Origin: Symmetrospora coprosmae | Taxonomy: Eukaryota; Basidiomycota; Cystobasidiomycetes; Symmetrosporaceae | Assembly (NCBI GenBank): GCA_008802785.1 | Contig: VUYT01000014.1 | Span: forward strand, 310,001 to 374,000 | Direction: 5' to 3' | Length of the DNA stretch: 64,000 bases | In this document: positions 5,380 through 62,287 of the stretch, one piece after another | How the letters are laid out: the number at the start of each line of letters is the position of its first letter | Numbering within the stretch: the stretch's first letter is position 1 | Notes under the pieces: generated by a model | Database searches by the model: none | The model's input: the letters and a program-made list of their open reading frames with translations, nothing else | Told to the model about the DNA's origin: nothing | Program-made: the position numbers and the translations under genes

Positions 5380-6079
5380 GCTGCTCGGCCGTAGATAAGG
5401 AGATGTGTGATGTGTAAATATCTAGATTCACGTCGTAGTCAGATGGTCAGTTCGGTTAGCGGAAGATCGGGTCGGATAGGACCCCTATCGACTTTCCCGC
5501 TGTTGATTGGTCAAGGATTTGGTCACTGGCTGCCGGGCACCCCTTGTCAGGGCGCCGTCGCCACCGACACCCCTTTCCTCTGCTTCCTGTGGTCATTCTG
5601 AATGCAACACCATTTACGCTCCAACAGTCCAGCACTACCGGCCCTCGTACGACATAGCTCTGAGCTTGTCATTAGTTGCTATACAAACCTTTGCTCTGCA
5701 AGCAGGCGATAAGAGGTGGCCCTACGCATGCAGGCTGTGTCCAACCGGCCGTTCGATAGCATCGCGTCAGCGCCAAGCTCGGACTGCCTGATGTCGGCCG
5801 AGATATCCAGACTTTTTGAAGAGGTAAAAGGATCATACCAACCCGTCCGTTCTTTACGAGTCGGCCTTGCAGGACTGGTAACTGGGCGCGCGACCCGATC
5901 ACCGCGACCGCGACCCGATCACCGCGACCGCGACCGCGACCGCGATCCGCCGACCGCCGTCCGGCGGTGTCGTTTATGGAGGCTAACGTGATGCGCCTTG
6001 ATACGGATCTTTCTCTCTCGCCTTCCTCTCTTTCCTCCGCTCATCTCCTTACATCCATATCTCCTCATACAATATCAAC
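5380..6079. promoter_or_regulatory. Shared promoter region of the two orphan genes
   Basis: 700 bases between two divergent starts. At 5889-5960 it holds a degenerate tandem repeat built from GCGACCCGATCACC and GACCGC units. A pyrimidine-rich tract (TCTCTCTCGCCTTCC) precedes the start at 6080. No other gene is seen. Confidence 0.4.
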
Positions 6080-18639: not shown

Positions 18640-20617
18640 TCACCTGATCTTCGCGAACGGGTTGAGCACTCCCGCTTCGCCCTTCTTGTCGAGCCTGCCC
18701 TTTGCGAACGCGTTCCAGAATCGGAGAGTCTCGTCGCCTGCGCCCGTCACAATGGTCTGGCCATCCGGGCTCATGGCAAGGTACAGTACTCGGCAGGTGT
18801 GCCCCGTCAATGTAGCAACTTGCTGCATCGACGGGTACTTCCAGACCGCCACCTGATTCTGAATCGCAGACGCGTTCGAGAAGCCATGCGTCGAAACGAC
18901 TTCCGTGGAGCTGCGAGACATTCGCAACAGCTTCGATGTCAGCGAGTATTCAAGAACCGGACGTAGCCAGGCCACCCACTTCTTCGACCACAGCAGGTTG
19001 CACACCTGCGACCCCGTCTCGACCTCGCTCAGCAGGCTGCCCGTGAGCGTGTTCCAGAACCGGATCTTCTTGTCCGCTGTCCCTCCTCCGCTCGCGAGGA
19101 TGCCCGACTGGTGCAAGTTCCACGTGATGGCTTTCACGGCAGCCGTGTGCTCGCTGAAGCGATGGATGGTCCGGCTCTGCGTGCTGTCCCACACGAGGAG
19201 CTTGTTGTCGTTGCCCCCGCTCGCGAGCTGCGTCCCATTCGGACTCCACTTGATCCCGCAGATCTCCTGCCGGTGCCCCGTCAGCCGCCGGAAGTGGTGT
19301 GGGGCCTGCCGCACATCGCGGTGCAGGATCGAGCGGTCCCGCGAGCCTGACGATAGCACATAGTCGTTCCACGCCAGCGTCCCCGTCCGCGCCGTGTGCC
19401 CGGACATCTCGCGCTCGAATTGCTGCACCTCGGCATCGTAGATGCGCACCATCCCGCTGTTTGTCCCAATGGCAATCTTGGAGCCGCGCTGGATCCAGCT
19501 GATGCTCGCGACCGTGTCGTTCACCTCGGCCAGGTCGCACAGCTTGGTCACTGTGCTGTTCTTGGCTGACCACAAGTACACGCAGGCTCCCAGCCCGACT
19601 GCTAGTACGTTTGTCGAAGACCAGTCGACGAGGTTGAGGTAGAAGTCGTCGGCGAGATCCGGTGCGTCGAGGACCTTGAAGGGTACCTTGGATGCGATCT
19701 TGCTGGCTTTTCGCGGGCTCAGGAGGAGCTTCTGCGAGTCGTACCGGATCGGACTGGCAGAGTACCTCGAATGCGTGGGCGAGTCGAGGTTGTTCGGGAG
19801 GCCAGCTCCCCCTCCCCCGCCCGAGCCTTTGGTGCCGGACCCGGACGCGCTCCGCTTGCTGGGTGACGTGTACGAGAAGAGATTCTTGGTCCGTGTAGGA
19901 GTTGTCGGTCCGGAAGCAGCGGATGAGATGGATGGGTTGCCTGCTGTATAGCGGGAGGTGGACGGCGAGTGGGACAGAAAGGCTGTGTCGAGTGAGGTGT
20001 TGGAGGTGTCTTGACTGCCAAAGAGCTCGTTCTTGAGCATCGAGTTGAACGTCCGGTTGGCTTCGTCTAGCAGCGAGAGAGGTGAGGAAGACGGTGGGTT
20101 CAGCGGGCGCGTCTCCTCAGGCCTCGGGACGAGCTCTCACCTTTCTGGGCGTCGCTGTCTGGACCGCGGTGGATCTTGCGCTTGGCCGACGAGAGCTGCT
20201 GCGGTCCGGCGGGCGAGCGAGTCCCTCCGTCCGTGAGGAGGTTGAAGGTCGTGGCGAGGTCCACGCCATCGCGGTTTGGGATGAATCTGGACGTGACGGG
20301 GACCCGTCAGCGCATCCGAGCAGCAGCGAGCAGGCACGCATTTAGCGTCGAACGCACCTATCCCCGTAGACCATCCTCTCCTTGCCCTTTCTGCTGGCTG
20401 ACGTCGGGCTGGCATTGATATTGAACTCCTGGACGATGCCTCCTCCTCCTCCGCCGCCGCCAGACCGCGACGACGAGAGGGGTGGCGTACCATCGCGGGC
20501 ATCCAGCGCAGAGCTGCTTCCATCGCCAGCGCCATTGCCGCTGAAGATATAGCTCAGCCCTTTGCTGCTGCCATACCCAGACCCGCCGACCATCATGTCG
20601 TGCACCACTCCTGCCAT
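18640..20617 (-). CDS. CDH1: APC/C activator Cdh1/Fizzy-related, WD40 protein
   Basis: Exons 20617-20358, 20286-20141, 20066-18980 and 18910-18640 encode 587 residues. The protein recruits substrates to the anaphase-promoting complex in late mitosis and G1. The C-box DRFIPNR is rebuilt across intron 1 near residue 87, followed by FNLLTDGG and KNELFGS. The WD40 propeller runs from PDLADDFYLNLVDWSS to the end, and the chain finishes with the Ile-Arg tail (FAKIR) that docks on the APC/C. Intron 3 (18979-18911, 69 nt) has no stop and is a multiple of three; removing it restores the conserved WSKNSTEVVSTHGFS loop. N-terminus: an in-frame stop precedes, and ATG 20617 is the first available. Confidence 0.9.
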
Positions 20618-34310: not shown

Positions 34311-35545
34311 ATGTCCTTCACCATGTCCACCATGTCCAACGCTGCCTACGCCGAGAAGATCAGAAAACTCACAACTGGCACCAGGGAGGAACAAGCCTGC
34401 GTTCTGAGGGAGACGGTTCTGGAGCAGATGTCCCCCGACATGTGAGCGCAAAGGTGGTGATGTCTAGGTACTGTTTCAACAGTCATACTGAAACCGCCTC
34501 TATCGTTCTCAACCTGCCTTTTCCGCATGCGCATTTTCTACCCTTGCTGCTTCTTCCCTCCATCTTCCTCGGCTCTGGCTTCCCTTCCCTTTACCACGAC
34601 TTTCCGCTCTGCAGTAAAACCATCTACGATTCGGCACCGATGCAGAAGCTCATCGAGGACTTCAAGCGACTCCCCGACGCGAAGAGCAAGGAGGATCGTC
34701 TTCGAACCTGCTACTTCTGGACACTACAGTACCCTACCTCGCACTACACCTCCGACCGCGATAACGAAGAGGACCTCGAGTTCGTTCTTCAGGGTGCCAA
34801 CACGCTGTATCCGATCGTCGTGCCCTGCAAGCGCTCGCTATTCGGTATCGAGAATGTCACCATGTCGCCGTACATCATCGGCCGCTTCCTGCAGGCATTC
34901 GTTGGAGAGGAAGGCCAAAAGCTTCTCGAGTGGGATGTTAGCAATCTGGAGCAGCTCAAGCCGGCAGACTTGTTCGACATGGAGGCAGTGGGAAAGACTG
35001 GCAAGCTTTCCGAGGCGGACAACAAGGCTTTCGGCGAGGCCATCATGGCACACCTACCAGACGGCTGCATTCCACAGGGCATGCATGGGTTCATGCGCAA
35101 GCGGGAGGGGGTTCATCCTTCAGAACTGCCGATCAAGCACGTAGTTCGACCCCTCCGCATAGTCTGTCGAGACACCCGTCTCTGGCATGCCCTCTATCTG
35201 CAGGCGGCCGTCGTCGGCATCGACATCGAGGTCATCATCGCCGACGACATGCGCAGCGCCTTCTACGTTCCTGGCCCCTCCTCTGGCGGGAAGACCACAG
35301 ACAGGAAGGACGTCACCTTTTGCGCCAAAATGGCATGCGGCGTACTCTCCGACAAGTTGCGTCGCTGCTCCGCCTGCATGACGGCATCCTACTGCTCAGT
35401 CCTCCACCAGAAGCAGGACTGGCCCGTGCACAAGGCAGTCTGCAAAGACTCCCAGGCAGCTTTCAAGGCCAACAAGGAGAGGGAGAGCGGTTTTCACATC
35501 CCCACTTTCTACAACATGGGTAATAGCCTCAGCATCGTTGCCTAG
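34311..35545 (+). CDS. MYND zinc-finger protein, tandem paralog A
   Basis: Exons 34311-34441 and 34615-35545 encode 353 residues. The last 60 residues hold a MYND finger: Cys-x4-Cys-x9-Cys-x2-Cys, then SYCSVLHQKQDWPVHKAVC. MYND fingers usually bind proline-rich partners and act in transcription or chromatin. The 230-residue region before it (IYDSAPMQKLIEDFKRLPDA, YFWTLQYPTSHYTSD, PIVVPCKRSLFGIENVTMSP, HGFMRKREGVHPSELP) matches no domain I know but is shared with the next gene. Both genes have a single intron at the same position and phase, so they arose by tandem duplication. There is no membrane tail here. Confidence 0.8.
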
Positions 35546-35925: not shown

Positions 35926-37158
35926 ATGTCGTCGTCCCTCTACGACTCTGTGCGCGCTCACATTACGGCACGCAGGGCGCGAAGCGATCACAAGACGGCC
36001 TTGCGTGAGGCAGCCTCCAAGCGTATGAAGCCGGATATGTAAGCGCTTGACTGGCCGTAGCTACCAACGCGTGGCTATGTTGCCCACTGGCTCCAGCTGA
36101 TGAAGACTTGTACTGCTGTTGACGTACCCAGCAAGGCTATCTACGACTCGCCGCAGATGAAGCAGCTCGTGAAGGCTTTCAACCAGCTACCGAAGGCCAA
36201 GACGAAAGAGGACGAGAAGCGGACCAGTTACTTCTGGACGCTGCAATACCCCTTCGCTCACCACACTTCGGACCCACGCAATACCGAGGACATGGAATTT
36301 GTCCTGCATGGCAGACATCTGCTGAACCCCATTGTGGTGCCGTGCAAGCGCTCCCTTCTTCAGATGGAGGACTGCACCCTGTCGCCATACGTCATCGGCC
36401 TCTTCTGCCAGGCCTTTGTCGGCGAGACAGGCAAGAAGTTACTCGAGTGGGACCTGGCAAACCTGGAGGAGCATCGACCAGAGACGTATCTGGATGCGGG
36501 GTATCTCTTCAAGCACGGACAGCTCTCCGAGGCAGACAAAGAGCGCATCAGCCGGGAGAAAGCCTCAATTCTTCCTGCCGGCTACTTTACGCATGATGCG
36601 CACTTACTCATGCGCAAGCGAGAGGGCGTTCCGCCATCCAAGCTCCCAGTCGCGAAGGTCATCCGCCCGACCAGCATCTACTGCCGAGACATGCGCCTCA
36701 TCCGTGCTCTCCTTCTCCAGACCGCGCTCTTAGGCATCGAGATGGACGTCCTGCCCACCGATGCGCGAGATTACAGCGCCTTCTTCGTCCCGAGCGACAT
36801 TCCCGGCGGCAAGGTCTCCCCGAGGAAGGATGTCGCGTTCTGCGAGACCGCCGGGTGTACCGCCCTTTCCGACACACACCTGCGGTGCTCGTACTGCAAG
36901 TTGTCGTCGTATTGCTCGAATAAGCACCGAAAGCAGGACTGGCCCAAGCACAAAAGCCGCTGCTGGAACACGGAGCGGTTCTTCAAGGGGCAGAAGGAAG
37001 GTCGATGCGAGCTCGATTTCGGAGACAACCTGCGCCTCAGTATGGGGCTCGAGTCGACTCGCCAGGGAACCCAGAGATGGTCCAAGGTCAAATCGTTCTA
37101 TGTCTGGCTGGTTATTATGGTCGTTCTAGTCTGCCTAGCGTCGTTGGCTCGCCCGTGA
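35926..37158 (+). CDS. MYND zinc-finger protein, tandem paralog B, tail-anchored
   Basis: Exons 35926-36038 and 36132-37158 encode 379 residues. It aligns along its length with paralog A: IYDSPQMKQLVKAFNQLPKA, YFWTLQYPFAHHTSD, PIVVPCKRSLLQMEDCTLSP, LLMRKREGVPPSKLP, and the same MYND spacing with SYCSNKHRKQDWPKHKSRC. It differs by a C-terminal hydrophobic stretch (FYVWLVIMVVLVCLASLA) ending in Arg-Pro, a likely tail anchor that A lacks. The pair may therefore be split between a membrane and a soluble location. The first exons differ strongly. Confidence 0.8.
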
Positions 37159-49779: not shown

Positions 49780-52448
49780 TCAAGCCAATGCAGGATTCTC
49801 CTCTCGGGCATCCTTGCGCGCATACTCATGTGGCTGGATGCCAGAGTACAGGTCCATCGGCCGGCAGAGCGTCCCGAGCACATTGTCCCATCGCGAAGCA
49901 TAGCTGTATGGGTTTGACGGACGGCCCTTGTTGGGTCCATTCGGGTCCGTCGGGTACTTTGGCCGGATCTGTCGCATGTCCCCAGGCCCCCGTCAGCTGG
50001 CTCGTACTCGCATGCATCGCTCCCGAGCTGCACCGCATGCGTACGCACCATCTCGATGGTCGTCCGCCCGAGCCAGATCAGGCGACAGTGATACCCCGTC
50101 AGGCCAATGAGCGGCATGATGGCGGCCGTAGTGACAATGAGCACGACGAGCGTGCCAATCGTCCTCCATCCACTTAGGAGCGCCGCAGTGCCCACGTCCC
50201 CGCTCTGCACAACGAGGTGCGCCACGCTGATGCCAATAACAAACAGCCCGCACACAATCCCACTCAGCAGGAAGGCCATGAACGAGTTGTAGTTCCGCCG
50301 CCCGATGCAGTTGTTCAGGAAGGAGCAGTGGTGATCCGTCTGCTCGGTGCATACATCGCACAATCGGCAGTGGGATGTCCGTGGCGGACGGTATCTGGGT
50401 CGCGAGGATGGAATGTCAGCCTAGGTTAGGTTGCTTCGGCCTCAGATTAGAACCCACGTCTGACACGTCTCGCACCACTTCGAGCTGACGAGCTCCTCTC
50501 TGACGCGCACGTAGCGCAGTTTGGGCCTCTGCCCCATCCCGTTGCCCGTCAGATCGTCCTCGCCGCCGACAGGCACTGCAAAGCTCTCAAAATCCGGCTG
50601 TCGGTCCAGGCCTTTCGGTATGATCCCAGGATCACGCAGACTTGTCCGGAGCATCGAAGACCACATGATGAGCGTCGAGTAGGCGAAGAGGATGACAAGG
50701 GCCTTCCCTGCCGAAGAGTGGATGCTGCCGGCCGCACTGCCCTGCCCGTCCAGACCGCCTGGCGGCGTGTTGCGCCAGAGCCACTCCGCCTCAAATGCAA
50801 GGAAAGCCACAGGCATGAGGATGGCGAATAACAGAGAGGCCAGGAAAGGGAATGGGGAATCGCCGGACGTGAGCAGGCGGCCGGAGAGAAGGAAGCGTGT
50901 ATTGCCGCCGAGGTTATCTGTTCCGTACCCGAAGGGCGCAATGTCCTGCTCCTTCTTCTCGCTCGCCGAAGGATACGGCACATTCCCGAGTAGCTTGGCG
51001 AAGAAGGAGGGCGAGGCCCTCACGGCCTCGCTCTGCGAAGGTCCAATGCGGGAGGCGCGCTGCTGCTGCTTGTAGACCTCGTAATTCCGCAGGGGCTTCT
51101 GCGTAGCATCGGAAAGTATCGGAACGGTAGTGTGGGCGACAGAATACGGCCTGAAAGTCTGTTCTCGAGGATGTGCACCCTGCGCGTCCTGTCGCGGAGA
51201 GCTGCCTTTCTCGCCCATTCCCTCATCCCCCTTCTCTCGCAGTGAGGGGAGCTGCCCATCGCGCCCATTCGTCGCTGTACGTGGGCGAATCGTAGACGCG
51301 TACAGGGACGACTTGCGCTTCTCAGAAGCTGGGACAGCCACATTGGGCGTGTTGTCCGAGCTGATGCTCCTCCCGAAGCCAAGCAGAGAGCCAATGCTGC
51401 CCGTCTTGCTGCTCTTCCTTCTCCCGCCGTGATCCGACCGTCTCCGACTGTCTGCAGCAGGTAGGCCATTTGTGCTGTACCTGCTCCCGTCTGTGGTCCC
51501 ACGGTCGACCGCGTCGGCCTCTGCGCGCTCCCTCCCACCCGACGCCCACTCCTCTGCAACCTGCTCCGACACGCCAGAAGGGTACCAAATGAGAGGTTCC
51601 CTGCTCGCTTTGCTAGCTAGCGTGTCCTGCCTGCTCGCTGTACGCGTGTGCTGGTCCAGGCTGCCGTTCCTGCCTAGCGACCCGCTCGCAGCTGGGCCGT
51701 ACCCGCTTTGGCTCTGCGCAGGTCCGTAGGGGCTCTCCGAGTGCCGCTGCGCGTGCTGGCCTGAAGCAGAGACGAGGTTGCTTGCGGACCCAGAACATGA
51801 AGTGGCGGCATGCCCATCGTGCTCGGAACTGTCCCTCGGCGACTTGCTCAGAGGAGTAGGCGCATTCTCGCTCTCCTCGCCCGTAGCTGTGCCAGAGCTG
51901 CTTTCCCTGCGCGCATATGCGTCGTCGTCGTAGCCGCTGCGCACAGGGTACATGACGACGCTGCCCGTGGTCGGAGATGCCCCTGGAACCGACAAAATGG
52001 CAGCTGATCCAGCCAGGCCGCCAGCTTGTAGCGGGCGGGAACTCCGATTCTGCGCATCCTGCTGTGACTGTTGATGCTGCTGCTGCTGCTGCTGCTGCTG
52101 ACGCGCAAGAACTGCACTAGGCTTCCTAGGCGTCAGAAAGGCCGCGCTGGGGAGAATGCCCGTGCCCGTGCTTGTGTTCGTGCCTGGACCTCCTCCTCTT
52201 CCTCCAAAGGCGCCCGCTTGACCAGGGCGGCGCGATGGTGAGCCATAGAAGCTCTGCGTCGCTGAGAGGAGGACGTGAGGTGTCTGTCCTGCTCTGGCGG
52301 GCGATGCAGACGATGAGGACGAGGATGAAATGGAGACCCGAGCGGGCTTGAGCGCGGACGGCAGGCTGATGGACGGGAGGTGCGACCCGTCCTGGCCGTG
52401 CTCTCCTCCTCGAGGGGCGGCGAAGGGATTGGAGCTCGAGCTCGTCAT
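49780..52448 (-). CDS. ERF2: DHHC palmitoyltransferase, Erf2-like
   Basis: Exons 52448-50458, 50394-50049 and 49968-49780 encode 841 residues. The first 480 residues are low complexity and Ser-rich, with poly-Gln near 52090. Membrane helices (FPFLASLLFAILMPVAFLAF, LVILFAYSTLIMWSSML) precede the conserved DPGIIPKGLD and the cysteine-rich domain WCETCQTYRPPRTSHCRLC and TDHHCSFLNNCIGRRNY; the DHHC Cys is the acyl-transfer site. Two more helices and TTIEMIRPKYP (made by intron 2) follow, then NPYSYASRWDNVLGTLCRP. Erf2 with Erf4 palmitoylates Ras at the ER. Introns 1 and 2 were placed to restore these motifs. Confidence 0.85.
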
Positions 52449-52755
52449 GGCCGCGACTGCTGCTCTGCTGATGCTGTCCAGGCCATGCTGTGGTTGCCAA
52501 CGTTGGTGCGGATGGAGGGAGGGAAACAGTCGCACTCCGTGTTGGCTTCGCCGGACGTCGCGCAAGGACTGCAGCATCGCTTGATGGTTACATTGGACGC
52601 GCGTATCATGCAGATACGCTTTGCATCCACACGTCTCTCGGCCATCTCTACTCGCTACAACACTCTGGCTGCGACACCCAGAAGCGAGCTCTCGCCACAC
52701 ACAACGACACGAGCGATGTGGCTCCACCGTCACCGTCACCATCAACGCACGCAGC
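52449..52755. other. Intergenic, ERF2 promoter and RPB3 3' flank
   Basis: 307 bases. No supported element. Confidence 0.4.
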
Positions 52756-54369
52756 CTAGTCCCAGCTGCCGGCCCCTTGCTGCGGCTGATACGCCGGACT
52801 CGTGCTACCCCACGCCGCACCTGCTCCGTTTGCCCCATTCGTCTGACTGTTTTGCTGCTGCTGCTGTTGCGTGTGTGCAGGACTCGTGCTGCCCCAGGCG
52901 TTCGGTTGCGGCGGCTGCGGCGCATACCCTGCTGACGGCCCAGTCGAATCCCATGCGGATGCACTCGCTGCTCCTGCGCCGCCCGCATTGCCAGTGTACG
53001 CCGGACTCGTCGAGCCCCATGCGGCACCTGCGCTCGGTGCGGCACCTCCCACGGGGCGCGCCGCGTTGTATGCTGGGCTTGTGCTGCCCCACGCAGTCGC
53101 CGTCGCGGGCTGCGCTGTCCGTGCGTACCCAGGCGAAGCTCCCCATCCTGCACCCGTGCGCGGACTGCTCGACGCGCCACCATTGACGAGTCCAGCGCCA
53201 GCGCCGGACGCCACGCCTCCGTAGGTGGGTACAGACGCCGATGGGCCTCCAGGTCCTCCAGGGAATGCTCCGCCGCCCGGTGCGCCAGGATACGGCGCTC
53301 CTCCTAGCCCATACTGCCCTTCCATGTCGGCCATGTTCGGCACCTGCGGCCCGAGCAGATCATTCAGGCCCGTCTGCACGCCCGCGAGCTTGAGAATGAG
53401 CGCGTCGATCCCCTTGACGAGGATGTCGTCCACCTTCAGGCTGCCCACAGACTCGACGTCCATGTAGAAGCGCGAGGGCCGGCTCTCCCAGTCTATCCCC
53501 TGCCCGGGCGCCAGGTCCCGCTCGAATCGCCCGTTCTTGCTGATGGGCCATTCCTTCTTTGGGTCTGTCCCTCGCTCGTACCAGAGATCAGTGTGGCCGA
53601 GTCGGTTGTGTGGGTCGTATTCGAAGCCGACGGCAGAGACTGGTGACCATTTGGCGTGCTCCTTCGCGATGCCCTGCGCGAGTACGGGAGAGGTTTGACG
53701 GTGTTAGCGAGAGGCACGGTGAGGGCAGCCGTGAGCCGGGATGGAAGTAACCACACACCCTCGTAGCGCGACAGATGACCTTGAGCTCCTGTCCCACGCG
53801 CATCTTGACGAGCGTGATGGGCGTGCCGTCATCGAAGGGCCGCCCGATGTCGCCCCTGGGCGGCCCTGCCGGGTTCGGTGGGGCAACGACGTGCAAGTCG
53901 CGGCTGGTGACCTCGAGTGTGCGGTTGTTGTCGCAGCGGGCGTGCAGGTGCAGCTCGACGCTGCAGAACTCGCAGAAGCCCATGCAGGTGCAGTCCCGGG
54001 GCACGTTGGGGACGAGCGCGTCGAGGTTCTCGCTGTTGAGCGGAATCATTCCCAGCCGGTGCACAATCATCTCGTCCGGGAGGACCGACGTGTTTTCCGC
54101 AATGTCGACCATGTCGATGGCTGGCAGGTCGAGGGTTACGCGGCGTCAGTCTACGCCGCTATGCGCATGCTCGTGCCCGAAGAAGAGAGAAGCGAGGACG
54201 CACCCAGAGTCGGAACATCGGCAATGACGCTCCGCCGCAGAGCATTGGCGAGGCCCAGCTCGACGCCCTCGATGATGAGGGAGCAGCTGCTCTTGGTGTA
54301 CTCTGTGATCTTGACAGCCAGCTCGCTGCCGTCTGTCGTCTTTGGCGGGATCTGCGAGAGTGTCGACAT
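52756..54369 (-). CDS. RPB3: RNA polymerase II subunit RPB3 with long repeat-bearing C-terminal tail
   Basis: Exons 54369-54204, 54120-53759 and 53673-52756 encode 481 residues; usual Rpb3 has about 270-320. Rpb3 pairs with Rpb11 to start assembly of polymerase II. The alpha-like fold is clear: LGLANALRRSVIADVPTLAI, the zinc loop Cys-x-Cys-x3-Cys-x2-Cys (DCTCMGFCEFC), GIAKEHAKWSPVSAVGFEYDP, and FYMDVESVGSLKVDDILVKG. After about residue 310 comes a Gly/Ala/Pro-rich tail with AWGSTSPAY at residues 370-378 and 394-402, AWGSTSPAH at 435-443 and AWGSTSPAY at 463-471, plus degenerate GWGASPGY and AWDSTGPSAGY. The frame is continuous and ends SWD. Such repeats recall the Spt5 and Rpb1 repeat tails. 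Confidence 0.92.
52789..53150 (-). repeat. CTD-like coding repeats (AWGSTSPAY) in RPB3
   Basis: Four 27 nt units at 53093-53067, 53022-52996, 52899-52873 and 52815-52789 encode AWGSTSPA followed by Tyr or His. Codons differ between units (TCG/AGC/ACG choices), so the peptide, not only the DNA, seems kept. Two weaker units lie near 53145 and 52945. Confidence 0.9.
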
Positions 54370-54681: not shown

Positions 54682-56210
54682 TTATATCACGATCCGCTCA
54701 GCGCTCTCTGCAAGCGTATCCACGCTCTCTTCTTCCACATCCTCTCCCGCCAGCTTGACTTTCCGACGGGTGGTATTCCCGAGCTTGTCAGTCTCCGTCA
54801 CCCATCCCTCGTCGCTAGCCAGTCCTTCGTCGTCGTCGTCTTCGTCGTCCTCCTCTTCTCCATCCTCCGAGCCTTCCGAGTCGTAATCCTCCTCCTCGTC
54901 CCCGTCCTGCTCACCATCCAGCTCCGCACCATCGTCTTCCAGCGCGCCATCCCCGTGCGATTCCCCCTCGGCGCCGTTGCCATTAGGCTCCGCCAGCTTG
55001 CCCTTCCTGCTCCTCCTGAGCGGCCGCCACGCCTCCTTGGTGTGGTTCGGGTTGTCGAGCAGCACGCCGCCCTCATCCTCCATGGCCCGCTGCGCCTGCT
55101 GCGCCGCCCGGCGCTCGTCCACTTCTGACTGGATCTCGCCCTGGATGGCCTCCTGCATGAGCCTTATGGCGTCTGCGTCCTCGCACGTCTTGTATCGCTC
55201 AATGAGGGGGCTGTCGGACGAGGCGAGGCGGGACAGCATCAGCCACGATACATCCCCGCAGAGACTGCCCAGGTGTTGATCTGAAGGAAGTGCACCCATT
55301 CATCTCCCAGAAACTGTGGCCCCAGCCAAATTTGCCGAGCATGTCGTTGCCCTGGTCGTCGAACCCGCAGATGTACAGTGTGGCAGCGACGGCTTCCACG
55401 CAGGTGAGCTTGTATGGCTTGCCGTAGTTGACGGGGTTGGCCGCGATGAGGTACGGGACTGCCAAATCGAAGCGCGATAAGCGAGTGTATGATATGAGGA
55501 CAAAAAGCAGGAAAGACGAGGAGCTTGTAACTCACGCAAGCGCTCATTCGGCGAGCGGATCTTGCCCCAGGGCAGCTCCTCCAGGCGGGCCCAGGAGCAC
55601 TCTACGACGGCGGCTCCGTGCTCTCTGACGATTGCCGCGTCTGCAGGCGAGATGACCTGGACGCCTTTGGGCGAAAGGACGACGCCTCGAAAGCGCTGGC
55701 CCACGCGGAGCTCGGACATCATGCCCATCCGAGCGAGCTTCTTGCCGGAGCAGCGCTTTGGGTCGCAGTGGTCAAAGTCCTGCAAAAGGCGGGTCAGCTT
55801 TAATGCGAGCAGATGCGGCGTCTGAAGGCTGGTGTGACGCTGCTCGCACTCACCCACATGGCGACGGGCACGCGCTGCGGCCGTGCTCCGTCCTGCGAGC
55901 CGCCTGCTTCCTCGTCCGAGTCGCTTTCGTCGTGCAGGCCGTTCGATGACGCTGGAAATCGTCATACCAGTGGCATGCATCCGGCGGAAGAGCCTCAGCG
56001 CGTGGGACCATATATGTGTGAGACCGGACGGAGAGATGTAACCGCACACGATCCTGCCATCAGGCCATGCTCGTCCTTGACGATGGCCGACACTGGCCTC
56101 CCGTGGTCCTTGCTGTCGGTGTAGACGGTCTTGTCCTTGCCGCCACCGCGGTGATGCCTCGCCTGGGACTTCCCCCTCGCTGCGCTCTTGTTGCCTCCTC
56201 TGCTGGGCAT
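54682..56210 (-). CDS. TSR3: 18S rRNA aminocarboxypropyltransferase Tsr3
   Basis: Exons 56210-56048, 55951-55854, 55779-55536, 55458-55296 and 55210-54682 encode 398 residues. Tsr3 adds the acp group to the hypermodified 18S rRNA base in late cytoplasmic 40S maturation. Marks: VPVAMWDFDHCDPKRCSGKKL, RFRGVVLSPKGVQVISPAD, AAVVECSWARLEELPW, LLPYLIAANPVNYGKPYKL, CVEAVAATLYICGF, then EMNGPLIERYKTCEDADAI (restored by the last intron). The N-terminus is basic (RHHRGGGKD). The last 130 residues are very acidic (Asp/Glu runs), usual for fungal Tsr3. Confidence 0.92.
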
Positions 56211-56435
56211 GGTGGATGGCGTACTGTATGTGAGCAGGGTGCTGTGTACGTATACTTACGTGTACGGAGTGGAACCTCAGCTGTCACACTTTGTGCGCAG
56301 GATGACCTCGGTGGCCTCGTGCTCGTGCTTCGATCGGGTCGCATCCATCCATCGCATCCATCCATCCATCCATCGCAGCTCAGCATCCTCTACATCCTCC
56401 ACTCCTCACTCTCCCTACTCTCCCTCCCTCCTGAG
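56211..56435. promoter_or_regulatory. Bidirectional promoter TSR3 / PIG-S, with ATCC microsatellite
   Basis: 225 bases between divergent starts. A CATC/ATCC tetranucleotide repeat lies at 56343-56377. Confidence 0.6.
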
Positions 56436-58331
56436 ATGGCCGACGCAGCCATCACAGCATCGCCAGGCTCGGCGCCCTCCTTCCAGGACACCCGCACGCG
56501 TCGGTCCATCGTCATAGCATACTGGAGCGTCATCCTCTTCTGCATACCCTACTGGTGGTACAGCACGACAATAGAGCGGCATGCGCTGCCCCTGTTCGAG
56601 ATGGAGCAGTGGCAGCTGCGCAAGGTGAGCAAGCAGGCGGCCGCGTCTGACGATGACGATGACGATGACGCCGGAGTCTGTCGCGCGCGTACATACATCG
56701 CAGGCTGAGCCTGGGCTTCCGTCCTCCGGCATGCAAACAGCCCTGCCCCGTTCAGCTGCCCGTGGGCTTCCGCTCAATCCGCCCAGACACGCTCAACGAG
56801 CTCAACCGCCAAAGCGAGCTGCGCGGGCGCTGCCTGCGCTTCGAGCACGCCGAGCTCGCTGTACACGGCCAGCCCGCCCGAGACGCTCGAGCGGCGGACG
56901 ATTACGGCAAAACAACATACGCGGTCGTCGGAGATGGCGACGCAACGTCCCTCGCAGACCGCTTCATGCCCCGGCCGACTGCGCTCGGGCAAACGAGCAG
57001 TGGACTAGCGCAGTACTCGACGGACTCGAGAGCCGTCAAGTTCGCATCGCGCTACAAGCTCGTCTTCAGCTTGCTCAACGAGGACGTAGCGAGAGGAGGG
57101 ATAAAGGACTGGGACGTCGCGCCTGCGCTCGAGAGTCAGTAACCGCCACTGGCGCTTGTCTGCACGTCTGAGCCATTGGCTGAATCTTATCCCTTTGGAT
57201 CGCGTCGACAGAGCACGTACTCCCCTTGCTGCAGTCCCTGCGAGATCTGCACAGTTTCGATATCGAGACGCAGGTCCAGTACTACTCCCCGCTTCTTGTC
57301 GAGCGGACGCTCGCCGGTGGTCAGTCCGGGTCAATCATCGAGGAAGACCAGCTCAAGGCGTTCGTCAACAGTGCAGACTGGAATCTGGGTGAGACACCCC
57401 ACACCTCCAACTTCGCACATACCGACAAGACTGAGTAACCCGCTTTCACGGGATGCTGCCCAGCCTCGGCAGTGTCGACCGACCCGGTTCTCCATTTCAT
57501 CCTCTACATCCCCGCCAGCGAGACCTCCCCGCTGCTCGTCAGACGGACAAGCACTGGCATTATAGTGCCTCTGACCGGCTTCCTCACGCCGCAATGGGGC
57601 AGCATCGCCATCTTTGACTCTTCTTCAGCTCCATCATCGCCATACAGCACGCTGTCGGGCTCGCAGCTGGCCGGCGCGTTCGACGGCTTTGTCTCGCACC
57701 TCCGCACGCTGCTCGGACTTCCCACTGCTCCATCCGGCACTTCGCAGCCCCATGGTACACAAGGCCTGCCAAGCGAGGTCGAGGCGCTCATGCGGGAGCG
57801 CACCGTCCAGAACGCACGGGAGGCCGTGGACCGGCTCGGCGCGATCGCAAAGCAGGTCGAAGGAATCCAGAACATGCGCATCCCGCGCGCAGTGCAGACG
57901 GACGTGCGGGGTGTCCTGGACGCGCTGACAAAGGTCAGTCCGCGCTCTCCTCTCCGCCCCTATCGCCGGCTGCTGCTGATCTCCACCCTGCCCATGCCCA
58001 TGCCCGTCAGCTCGAGACGGCAAACCTGACGGCGAGCATGGCGCACTCGGCTCGGGCCGTCAATCTCGCATCGCGCGCGTCATTCAACCACGAGATGCTC
58101 GCTCTGCTGTACTTCCCAGACGAGCACAAGTGGGCCGTCTACATGCCATTATTTGGGCCGATGCGTAAGTGCTGGAGAAGGTAGCCCTCGCTAGCATCCT
58201 CGCGCGTGCTGAGGAAATGCCGCCGCTGGGCTTCCGCAGTCGTGCCGCTTTTGGTCGCGCTGGTCCGCGAAGTGAAGGAGTACCGGAATCGCGGAAAGCT
58301 CGCCGCTGCGGAAAAGTCAAAAGTTGAGTGA
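56436..58331 (+). CDS. GPI17: GPI transamidase subunit PIG-S/Gpi17
   Basis: Exons 56436-56624, 56756-57134, 57212-57388, 57473-57933, 58011-58164 and 58240-58331 encode 483 residues. The subunit belongs to the ER complex that attaches GPI anchors to proteins. Marks: N-terminal membrane helix with PYWWYSTTIERHALP, then LPVGFRSI, KFASRYKLVFSLLNED, DIETQVQYYSPL, VLHFILYIP, GFLTPQWGSIAIF, and FNHEMLALLYFPDEHKWAVYMPLFGP before a short C-terminal hydrophobic helix (VPLLVALVREVKEY). The usual second membrane segment at the end looks short. Confidence 0.9.
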
Positions 58332-59898: not shown

Positions 59899-61050
59899 GT
59901 TGGGCTGTCCGTATGTGCCTCTGGTGCTGCTGTTGGAAAGGGTCGTCCTGAACAAGGTGAGCCGTCACAAAGTCAAAAGGCGTTTCGCCGGCGGGCGCCT
60001 TCAGCGAGGTGGGCGAGCCCACTCTTGCATTCCCGACAACCAGACGAAAGGGAGCAAAAACCCAGACACGGCATCGAATGTTAAGCAAGGATATCGAGAC
60101 ATGTACTCTCTTGCCGGACGCGCTCTGCTTCCTGCTTCTGCGCCGCTCACAGCGTCGTCTGGCCGACCCCTGAGCTGCTGGCAATGCGATGAACCGAGCC
60201 AACCCTGACGCCCAACCCTGACGCCCCACCCTGACGCCTAATGAGATAGAAATGCTACCGTCAAGGGGTGCTAGACATCCGACTGCACCACGTCGCCTTG
60301 TGTGCCGGGGAATCCCGCCGCTTCACATTCTGCCCTGCAGCCTCAGCTCTCGTCTAACCCCGACACATCCGTCCCGTCCGCAGGTCTGTAAAACACGAAG
60401 TCCCCACTCTCCCACCACGACATGGAGGTACCCGTTCATATATCTCGGCGTCCTCCCTCCCGCGAGCGCCCTTTGCAGAACGAGAATCGCGGCCACGAGC
60501 AGCCTGTCCAACGCTGATCCGGGAACAAAGCACGCGCCGCTGCGATCTGGCCAGCCCACGCTTCAAGCGGACGCCCTCGAGGCTGCAACGGTGCCCTCCA
60601 GCGCAGCAGACACACGGCAGGTCTTTGGGCAAGACAAGTCCGGCTCAGGGCGCAGCCGACTGCAACCTTTGTCTCGCCACATTGGGCCGATCCGGTGCTT
60701 GCATGAGTCTGGAGACCCGGCGGCCTCCTCTCGGCTGCCTGGGTATGACACGCGCATTCGACAAAGGATACTAGGTCATGTGCCACTCGTGCAGTGCACT
60801 TGCCACCGATGGGATAGGGCGGCTCCCGCTGCTGGGGTCTGGCTGTCTGGCCACGTCCTGGCTGTGCACTGGGCCGGCATTGGGCGAAAAGGGCAAGGCT
60901 GGACTGCAGTGCGCCGTCCTATAAAAGCACGACCTGTCTCTGCTCTCTGCCCTCTCCCATTCCGACTCGAACACTTACTACTGCCGTCCCCAACTGGCAT
61001 TCGTACACTGAAACCTGCGCGAACACAACCCGGACCTCCTGAGCAAGACA
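59899..61050. promoter_or_regulatory. Divergent region eIF2alpha / orphan gene, with TATA box
   Basis: 1.15 kb. At 60199-60240 there are three copies of CCCTGACGCC separated by two or three bases. A TATAAAA box lies at 60920-60926, about 125 bases before the orphan start at 61051, followed by a pyrimidine-rich stretch. A 275-codon plus frame at 60252-61076 has no motif and overlaps the promoter, so it is not called. Confidence 0.5.
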
Positions 61051-61933: not shown

Positions 61934-62287
61934 ACCACACTAGATGACGCTTACGACGACGTCTTCCCCAGCGCCCTTACCTTTGAGGTTGAAGGAGCCC
62001 TCAGCGACCCATTAGAACATACCACTAGATGAGATGTATTAGATCGCTCTGTAGTAATTGAACGTAGTAATTGAACAATGCATAGATGAGCGACTCCACA
62101 CTTTTGCATACGTGTCAACTTGCACCGCTGCACCGCTTGTCCCATGTGGTCCTTTGCCACCGCTCGTGCCTGAACAGGGGCGTCTGCACGTGCGTCCGGG
62201 TCTCGGCGTCCTGCACAAAAGCCCCGAGGCGACGAGCTCAGGTCTGCCTTCCTCCTCTGCTCTACAGCCCTCCATTGCCCAATCTTC
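61934..62287. other. Intergenic upstream of the SIMPL gene
   Basis: 354 bases, AT-richer near 62020-62090 with the word GTAATTGAAC repeated twice. Promoter presumably here. Confidence 0.4.

Follow-up and report, generated by a model that had tools for sequence, protein, structure and literature searches.

A gene of three exons (Table 1) lies on the minus strand of the window, the whole 64,000-nucleotide stretch of Symmetrospora coprosmae contig VUYT01000014.1 that was analysed. The reading restored once intron 1 is removed is the one conserved in yeasts. Among PDB sequences, residues 15-282 of the product match the RPB3 of S. pombe, Komagataella phaffii and S. cerevisiae (phmmer, E ~1e-68 to 1e-69; best E 3.8e-69, to S. 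pombe Rpb3), and RPB3-type chains score 131-237 bits, whereas RPAC1 (Pol I/III) and archaeal Rpo3 reach at most 73 bits. Both Pfam domains are found in the gene product, PF01193 (RNA_pol_L) at 48.1 bits (cut-off 24) and PF01000 (RNA_pol_A_bac) at 44.3 bits (cut-off 33.9). The insert domain carries the CxCxxxCxxC motif as RDCTCMGFCEFC, and its four cysteines are invariant in an alignment with the three yeasts. The first-pass annotation had named the product RPB3, a subunit of RNA polymerase II, and by these matches that is what it is, rather than RPAC1 or archaeal Rpo3. Searches of bacterial and archaeal genome contigs matched archaeal Rpo3 alone, with no contaminating fungal contig, and viral contigs held no RPB3 relative, whether searched with the single protein or with a four-species alignment.

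Table 1 Features of the RPB3 gene, in positions of the window
Feature	Position	Strand	Residues	Description
RPB3 gene	54369-52756	-	481 aa product	Three exons, two introns
Exon 1	54204..54369	-		N-terminus; Rpb3/Rpb11 dimerisation fold
Intron 1	54121..54203	-		83 nt, GTGCGT...CTGAC...CAG; splicing it out gives PTL-AID
Exon 2	53759..54120	-		Insert domain with CxCxxxCxxC zinc-type cysteines
Intron 2	53674..53758	-		85 nt, GTGTGT...CTAAC...GCAG
Exon 3	52756..53673	-		Core end (to ~aa 283), then tail, TAG stop
Linker	53149..53352	-	284-351 (~68 residues)	Gly/Pro/Ala-rich, without repeat units
Unit 1	53125..53148	-	352-359	GWGASPGY, degenerate
Unit 2	53068..53094	-	370-378	AWGSTSPAY
Unit 3	52996..53022	-	394-402	AWGSTSPAY
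Unit 4	52924..52956	-	416-426	AWDSTGPSAGY, degenerate
Unit 5	52873..52899	-	435-443	AWGSTSPAH
Unit 6	52789..52815	-	463-471	AWGSTSPAY
C-terminus and stop	52756..52770	-		GSWD, then TAG (52758-52756)

Directly downstream of RPB3 lies a gene (50442-52450, minus strand) that by eye resembles a DHHC-type acyltransferase; its N-terminus is long and of low complexity, and a polyQ run occupies 52059-52100. Pfam finds nothing in its unspliced frame. Inspection by eye suggests two genes upstream, one for TSR3-like rRNA modification (55300-55900, minus strand) and one for a PIG-S-like GPI transamidase (56415-58029, plus strand). Elsewhere, the window contains two adjacent MYND-finger proteins (34442-35545 and 36100-37158, plus strand) that are 53% identical over 290 residues and form a tandem duplicate pair, a single open frame for a WD40 protein of the CDC20/Fizzy type (18640-20040, minus strand), and short DNA tandem repeats, perfect or nearly so, at 5889-5957, 60199-60238 and 62051-62076, with periods of 20, 13 and 13.

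Homology of the gene product to other RPB3s ends near residue 283, and the chain continues for about 200 residues (198). This extension is real, but the interval 52756-53150 first assigned to a tail of about 160 residues spans the 131 codons of its repeat part. The linker leads into 130 residues that hold six units and the closing GSWD. Four near-identical AWGSTSPAY units and two degenerate ones had been described, and we find exactly these: three perfect copies, one with His in place of Tyr, and two degenerate. The spacers between them run to 7-19 residues of Ala, Gly, Pro, Gln and Asn, variable in length, and one holds a polyQ stretch. Six Ser-Pro sites fall in the tail, five inside units and one just before unit 1, whereas the core, 283 residues long, has two [ST]P sites; AWDSTGPSAGY is the sole unit that lacks Ser-Pro. 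The tail is 83% A/G/S/P/Q/T/N and almost free of charged and aliphatic residues (the last 132 residues of the protein include a single aliphatic residue and neither Lys nor Glu), and a search with the tail alone gives no PDB match at E 1. The composition is of the disorder type, as disordered segments typically have.

The repeats lie far above chance. Four 8-mers within one mismatch are present in the tail, a number reached by none of 500 tail shuffles (maximum 2), and W[GD]x(1-3)Px(1-3)[YH] is matched six times, against at most twice in 20,000 shuffles. When the entire window is translated in six frames, [WY]G[ST]x(0-2)[ST]Px[WYF] occurs only in the RPB3 tail.

At the nucleotide level the four best units differ pairwise at 5-8 of 27 bases, with a single amino-acid change among them (Tyr to His). 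Codon usage does differ between units, as had been claimed: 8 of the 11 variable columns are third positions, and the rest reflect an AGC/TCG serine switch and TAC/CAC. Divergence per site is 0.74 at synonymous positions (pS) and 0.08 at nonsynonymous positions (pN), the latter due in large part to the serine switch, in which serine is kept. When the same number of changes is simulated without constraint, 3-14 replacements result as against the one observed (0 of 20,000 runs reach one). The simulation takes the copies to be duplicates related by a star-like history, and convergence would likewise mean selection on the peptide. The RPB3 frame is also the best conserved, at 0.5 amino-acid differences per unit pair versus 1.5-4.8 in the other five frames, the next best (1.5) lying on the opposite strand. 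The tail contains no CTRAY branch-point consensus and hence no consensus intron. In the gene as a whole, consensus signals define the two modelled introns and one longer variant, which uses the intron 2 donor and stops within the core. Because synonymous divergence is accompanied by one replacement, no other frame is conserved as well and intron signals are absent, the repeats of the tail are coding and subject to purifying selection on the unit peptide, in agreement with the first-pass annotation. DNA tandem duplication without selection is rejected on the near-saturated synonymous divergence.

Two readings would deny the tail a function. Other long open frames occur on both strands of this GC-rich DNA, and one of 913 codons overlaps the RPB3 tail; open frames are thus cheap here, and the open RPB3 frame alone proves little. 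It could then be a gene-model artefact, with the tail untranslated, spliced out or part of another gene. We consider this very improbable, as conservation favours the RPB3 frame and the plausible start of the neighbouring gene lies ~300 nt past the RPB3 stop; a spliced-out tail was rejected on the intron signals described above. Neutral low-complexity expansion, in which a disordered end grew by slippage and took on no specific role, would account for Ala/Gly/Gln/Asn-rich spacers of varying length, the polyQ in one of them and the lower third-position GC of the tail (0.64; core 0.85). The codon evidence disfavours it, since the unit peptide was kept through the synonymous change, and Tandem Repeats Finder lists no tandem array in the DNA of the tail. 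Such an origin is improbable, if less so than an artefact.

The expectation that RPB3 ends soon after its alpha-like domain suits the human protein (275 aa), which continues ~10 residues past the same core position, and needs amending for fungi, where PDB sequences continue for ~32 residues in S. pombe, 41 in K. phaffii and 53 in S. cerevisiae. The S. pombe tail holds ..EMNWSPYQNGEEN.. and includes one NWSPYQ, and that of S. cerevisiae ends in GGYDNAW. Both resemble the present one as tails that follow the core, but they are short and have no repeat array, and the AWGSTSPAY-type repeat is not present in the PDB sequences of either. In K. phaffii RPB3 (PDB 5X4Z and others, chain C), the hexad T-x-Y-G-[GR]-x recurs five times within residues 264-298, the fifth copy being incomplete in the part read. 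T-x-Y-G occurs four times in the first 31 residues of this tail (0 of 20,000 shuffles reach this), and two hexads score 43 of a possible 65 against the S. cerevisiae Spt5 repeat (equalled by 0 of 5000 shuffles). The K. phaffii tail shares with ours its orthologous position and short repeats in which Gly follows an aromatic residue; it differs in having Tyr for Trp, in the absence of Ser/Thr-Pro from the part read, and in length (41 versus ~200 residues).

Repeats in RPB3 tails are therefore not unique to this genome, judging from the sequences compared. Since K. phaffii RPB3 already has a repeat tail, the AWGSTSPAY tail seems to be a fungal trait in enlarged form, and it is plausible that fungal RPB3 tails tend toward an Spt5-like sequence. 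The two examples are distant and their repeats differ in sequence, so that common descent of the repeats does not follow. The open-licence literature holds no report of an RPB3 C-terminal tail or extension, of RPB3 repeats or of the motif strings, which, given that scope, is weak evidence of novelty. The K. phaffii tail is part of the sequence behind a widely used structural model, yet the open-licence papers searched make no mention of it.

Spt5 repeats read TP(M/L)YGS(R/Q) in human, TPAWNSGSK in S. pombe and SAWGGQ in S. cerevisiae (PMC4787787). Written as W-G-S-T-S-P-A-Y, the unit matches the human Spt5 frame Y-G-S-x-T-P-x-Y at every position class, and the four units WGSTSPA[YH] conform to [YW]GSx[ST]Px[YH], that is, aromatic-Gly/Asn-Ser with an adjacent Ser/Thr-Pro, the mark of the Spt5 C-terminal repeats (CTR). 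The unit scores 25 against the human Spt5 repeat and 26 against the Rpb1 C-terminal domain (CTD) heptad YSPTSPS, values attained by 0.4% and 1.2% of shuffles, respectively; for strings so short and four comparisons, these figures are only suggestive. The proposed resemblance to both is borne out, and because the scores are so close the choice between Spt5 and Rpb1 is a weak one; the Trp-Gly of the unit speaks for Spt5.

Like the Spt5 CTR, the RPB3 tail is a tail on the elongating polymerase assembly, disordered to judge from its composition, with an aromatic-Gly/Asn-Ser core beside Ser/Thr-Pro and repeats that vary between species. It differs from the CTR in sitting on a core subunit rather than after the Spt5 KOW domains, and in having only six units, 7-19 residues apart, in place of a contiguous tandem array. 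With the Rpb1 CTD it shares a T-S-P-x-Y string, potential Ser-Pro phosphosites and its place as the tail of a Pol II subunit, whereas the unit has Trp-Gly and no Tyr-Ser-Pro, and the few copies are not head-to-tail and are carried on RPB3. The subunit being the wrong one and the units not contiguous, the tail is neither an Rpb1 CTD nor an Spt5 CTR. The earlier term, a CTD-like docking tail, is only partly supported: it is apt in that the unit fits the Spt5 pattern about as well as the Rpb1 heptad, and inapt in that the six units are spaced rather than tandem. The alpha subunit of bacterial RNA polymerase, of which RPB3 is the homologue, ends in a folded DNA- and activator-binding CTD. It too is a flexible C-terminal appendage, unlike the RPB3 tail in being folded (Pfam gives no family for the tail at E up to 1).

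We tentatively favour, with confidence a little below even, an ordinary RPB3 with a long flexible arm that would serve as a multivalent, probably kinase-regulated docking arm and work like the Spt5 CTR. Such an arm would project from the Rpb3/Rpb11 face and display six Trp-Gly-Ser-Thr-Ser-Pro-x-Tyr-type motifs on Ala/Gly/Pro/Gln/Asn spacers, and its aromatic-Gly-Ser/Pro motifs may bind elongation or RNA-processing factors multivalently. Proline-directed transcription kinases of the Cdk9/Bur1 or Cdk7 type could phosphorylate Ser-Pro and thereby switch the set of partners. For Spt5, the unphosphorylated repeats bind capping and 3′ factors, and Cdk9 phosphorylates the repeats to a form that is read by Rtf1 (PMC10659198). 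The nearest candidate partners would be Paf1C (via Cdc73) and Rtf1. Cdc73 of Paf1C contacts Rpb3 (PMC5467213), and affinity tags are tolerated at the yeast Rpb3 C-terminus (PMC10783616), which should thus face solvent; from these two observations the tail is probably exposed and near Paf1C. Points against the docking arm are the small number of units, their spacing and the degeneracy of some (one has no Ser-Pro, one has His for Tyr), together with the lack of this repeat in the budding and fission yeast RPB3 tails.

The main rival retains an arm but dispenses with its phosphorylation. In this sticker-and-spacer alternative, the spaced Trp and Tyr help weak clustering of polymerase or Mediator, and Ser-Pro is incidental or serves for tuning only. 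The 7 Trp and 8 Tyr among 198 residues nearly devoid of charge and aliphatics speak for it, and the K. phaffii tail keeps Tyr-Gly-Gly, so that aromatic-Gly, rather than Ser/Thr-Pro, is the element common to both tails. What it leaves unexplained is that the entire W-G-S-T-S-P-A is kept, with no replacement of Ser, Thr or Pro in four synonymously divergent copies, and we think it rather unlikely. Less likely again, and on a par with or slightly below neutral expansion, is an activator or coactivator contact arm at the alpha-CTD position, which would meet Mediator or activators at initiation instead of elongation factors. The tail does sit on the alpha homologue, and a flexible linker of ~68 residues precedes the units; however, the tail has neither a folded domain nor an alpha-CTD Pfam match, and its unit resembles the repeats of an elongation factor.

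The polymerase is thought to reach capping, elongation and 3′ processing factors via two repeat tails, those of Rpb1 and Spt5. It is possible, though we hold it with some doubt, that fungal RPB3 adds a third such tail to these two on the transcribing polymerase, a C-terminal repeat domain of its own that evolves rapidly. This domain would share the Spt5-type code (aromatic-Gly-x with Ser/Thr) and partners, and would be seen as WGSTSPAY here and as TxYGGx hexads in K. phaffii. The K. phaffii tail makes the repeat-tail idea testable in a genetically tractable yeast. If a selected repeat tail does lie on a third component, at the Rpb3/Rpb11 face where Paf1C sits, lineages would move or duplicate the docking platform of the polymerase.
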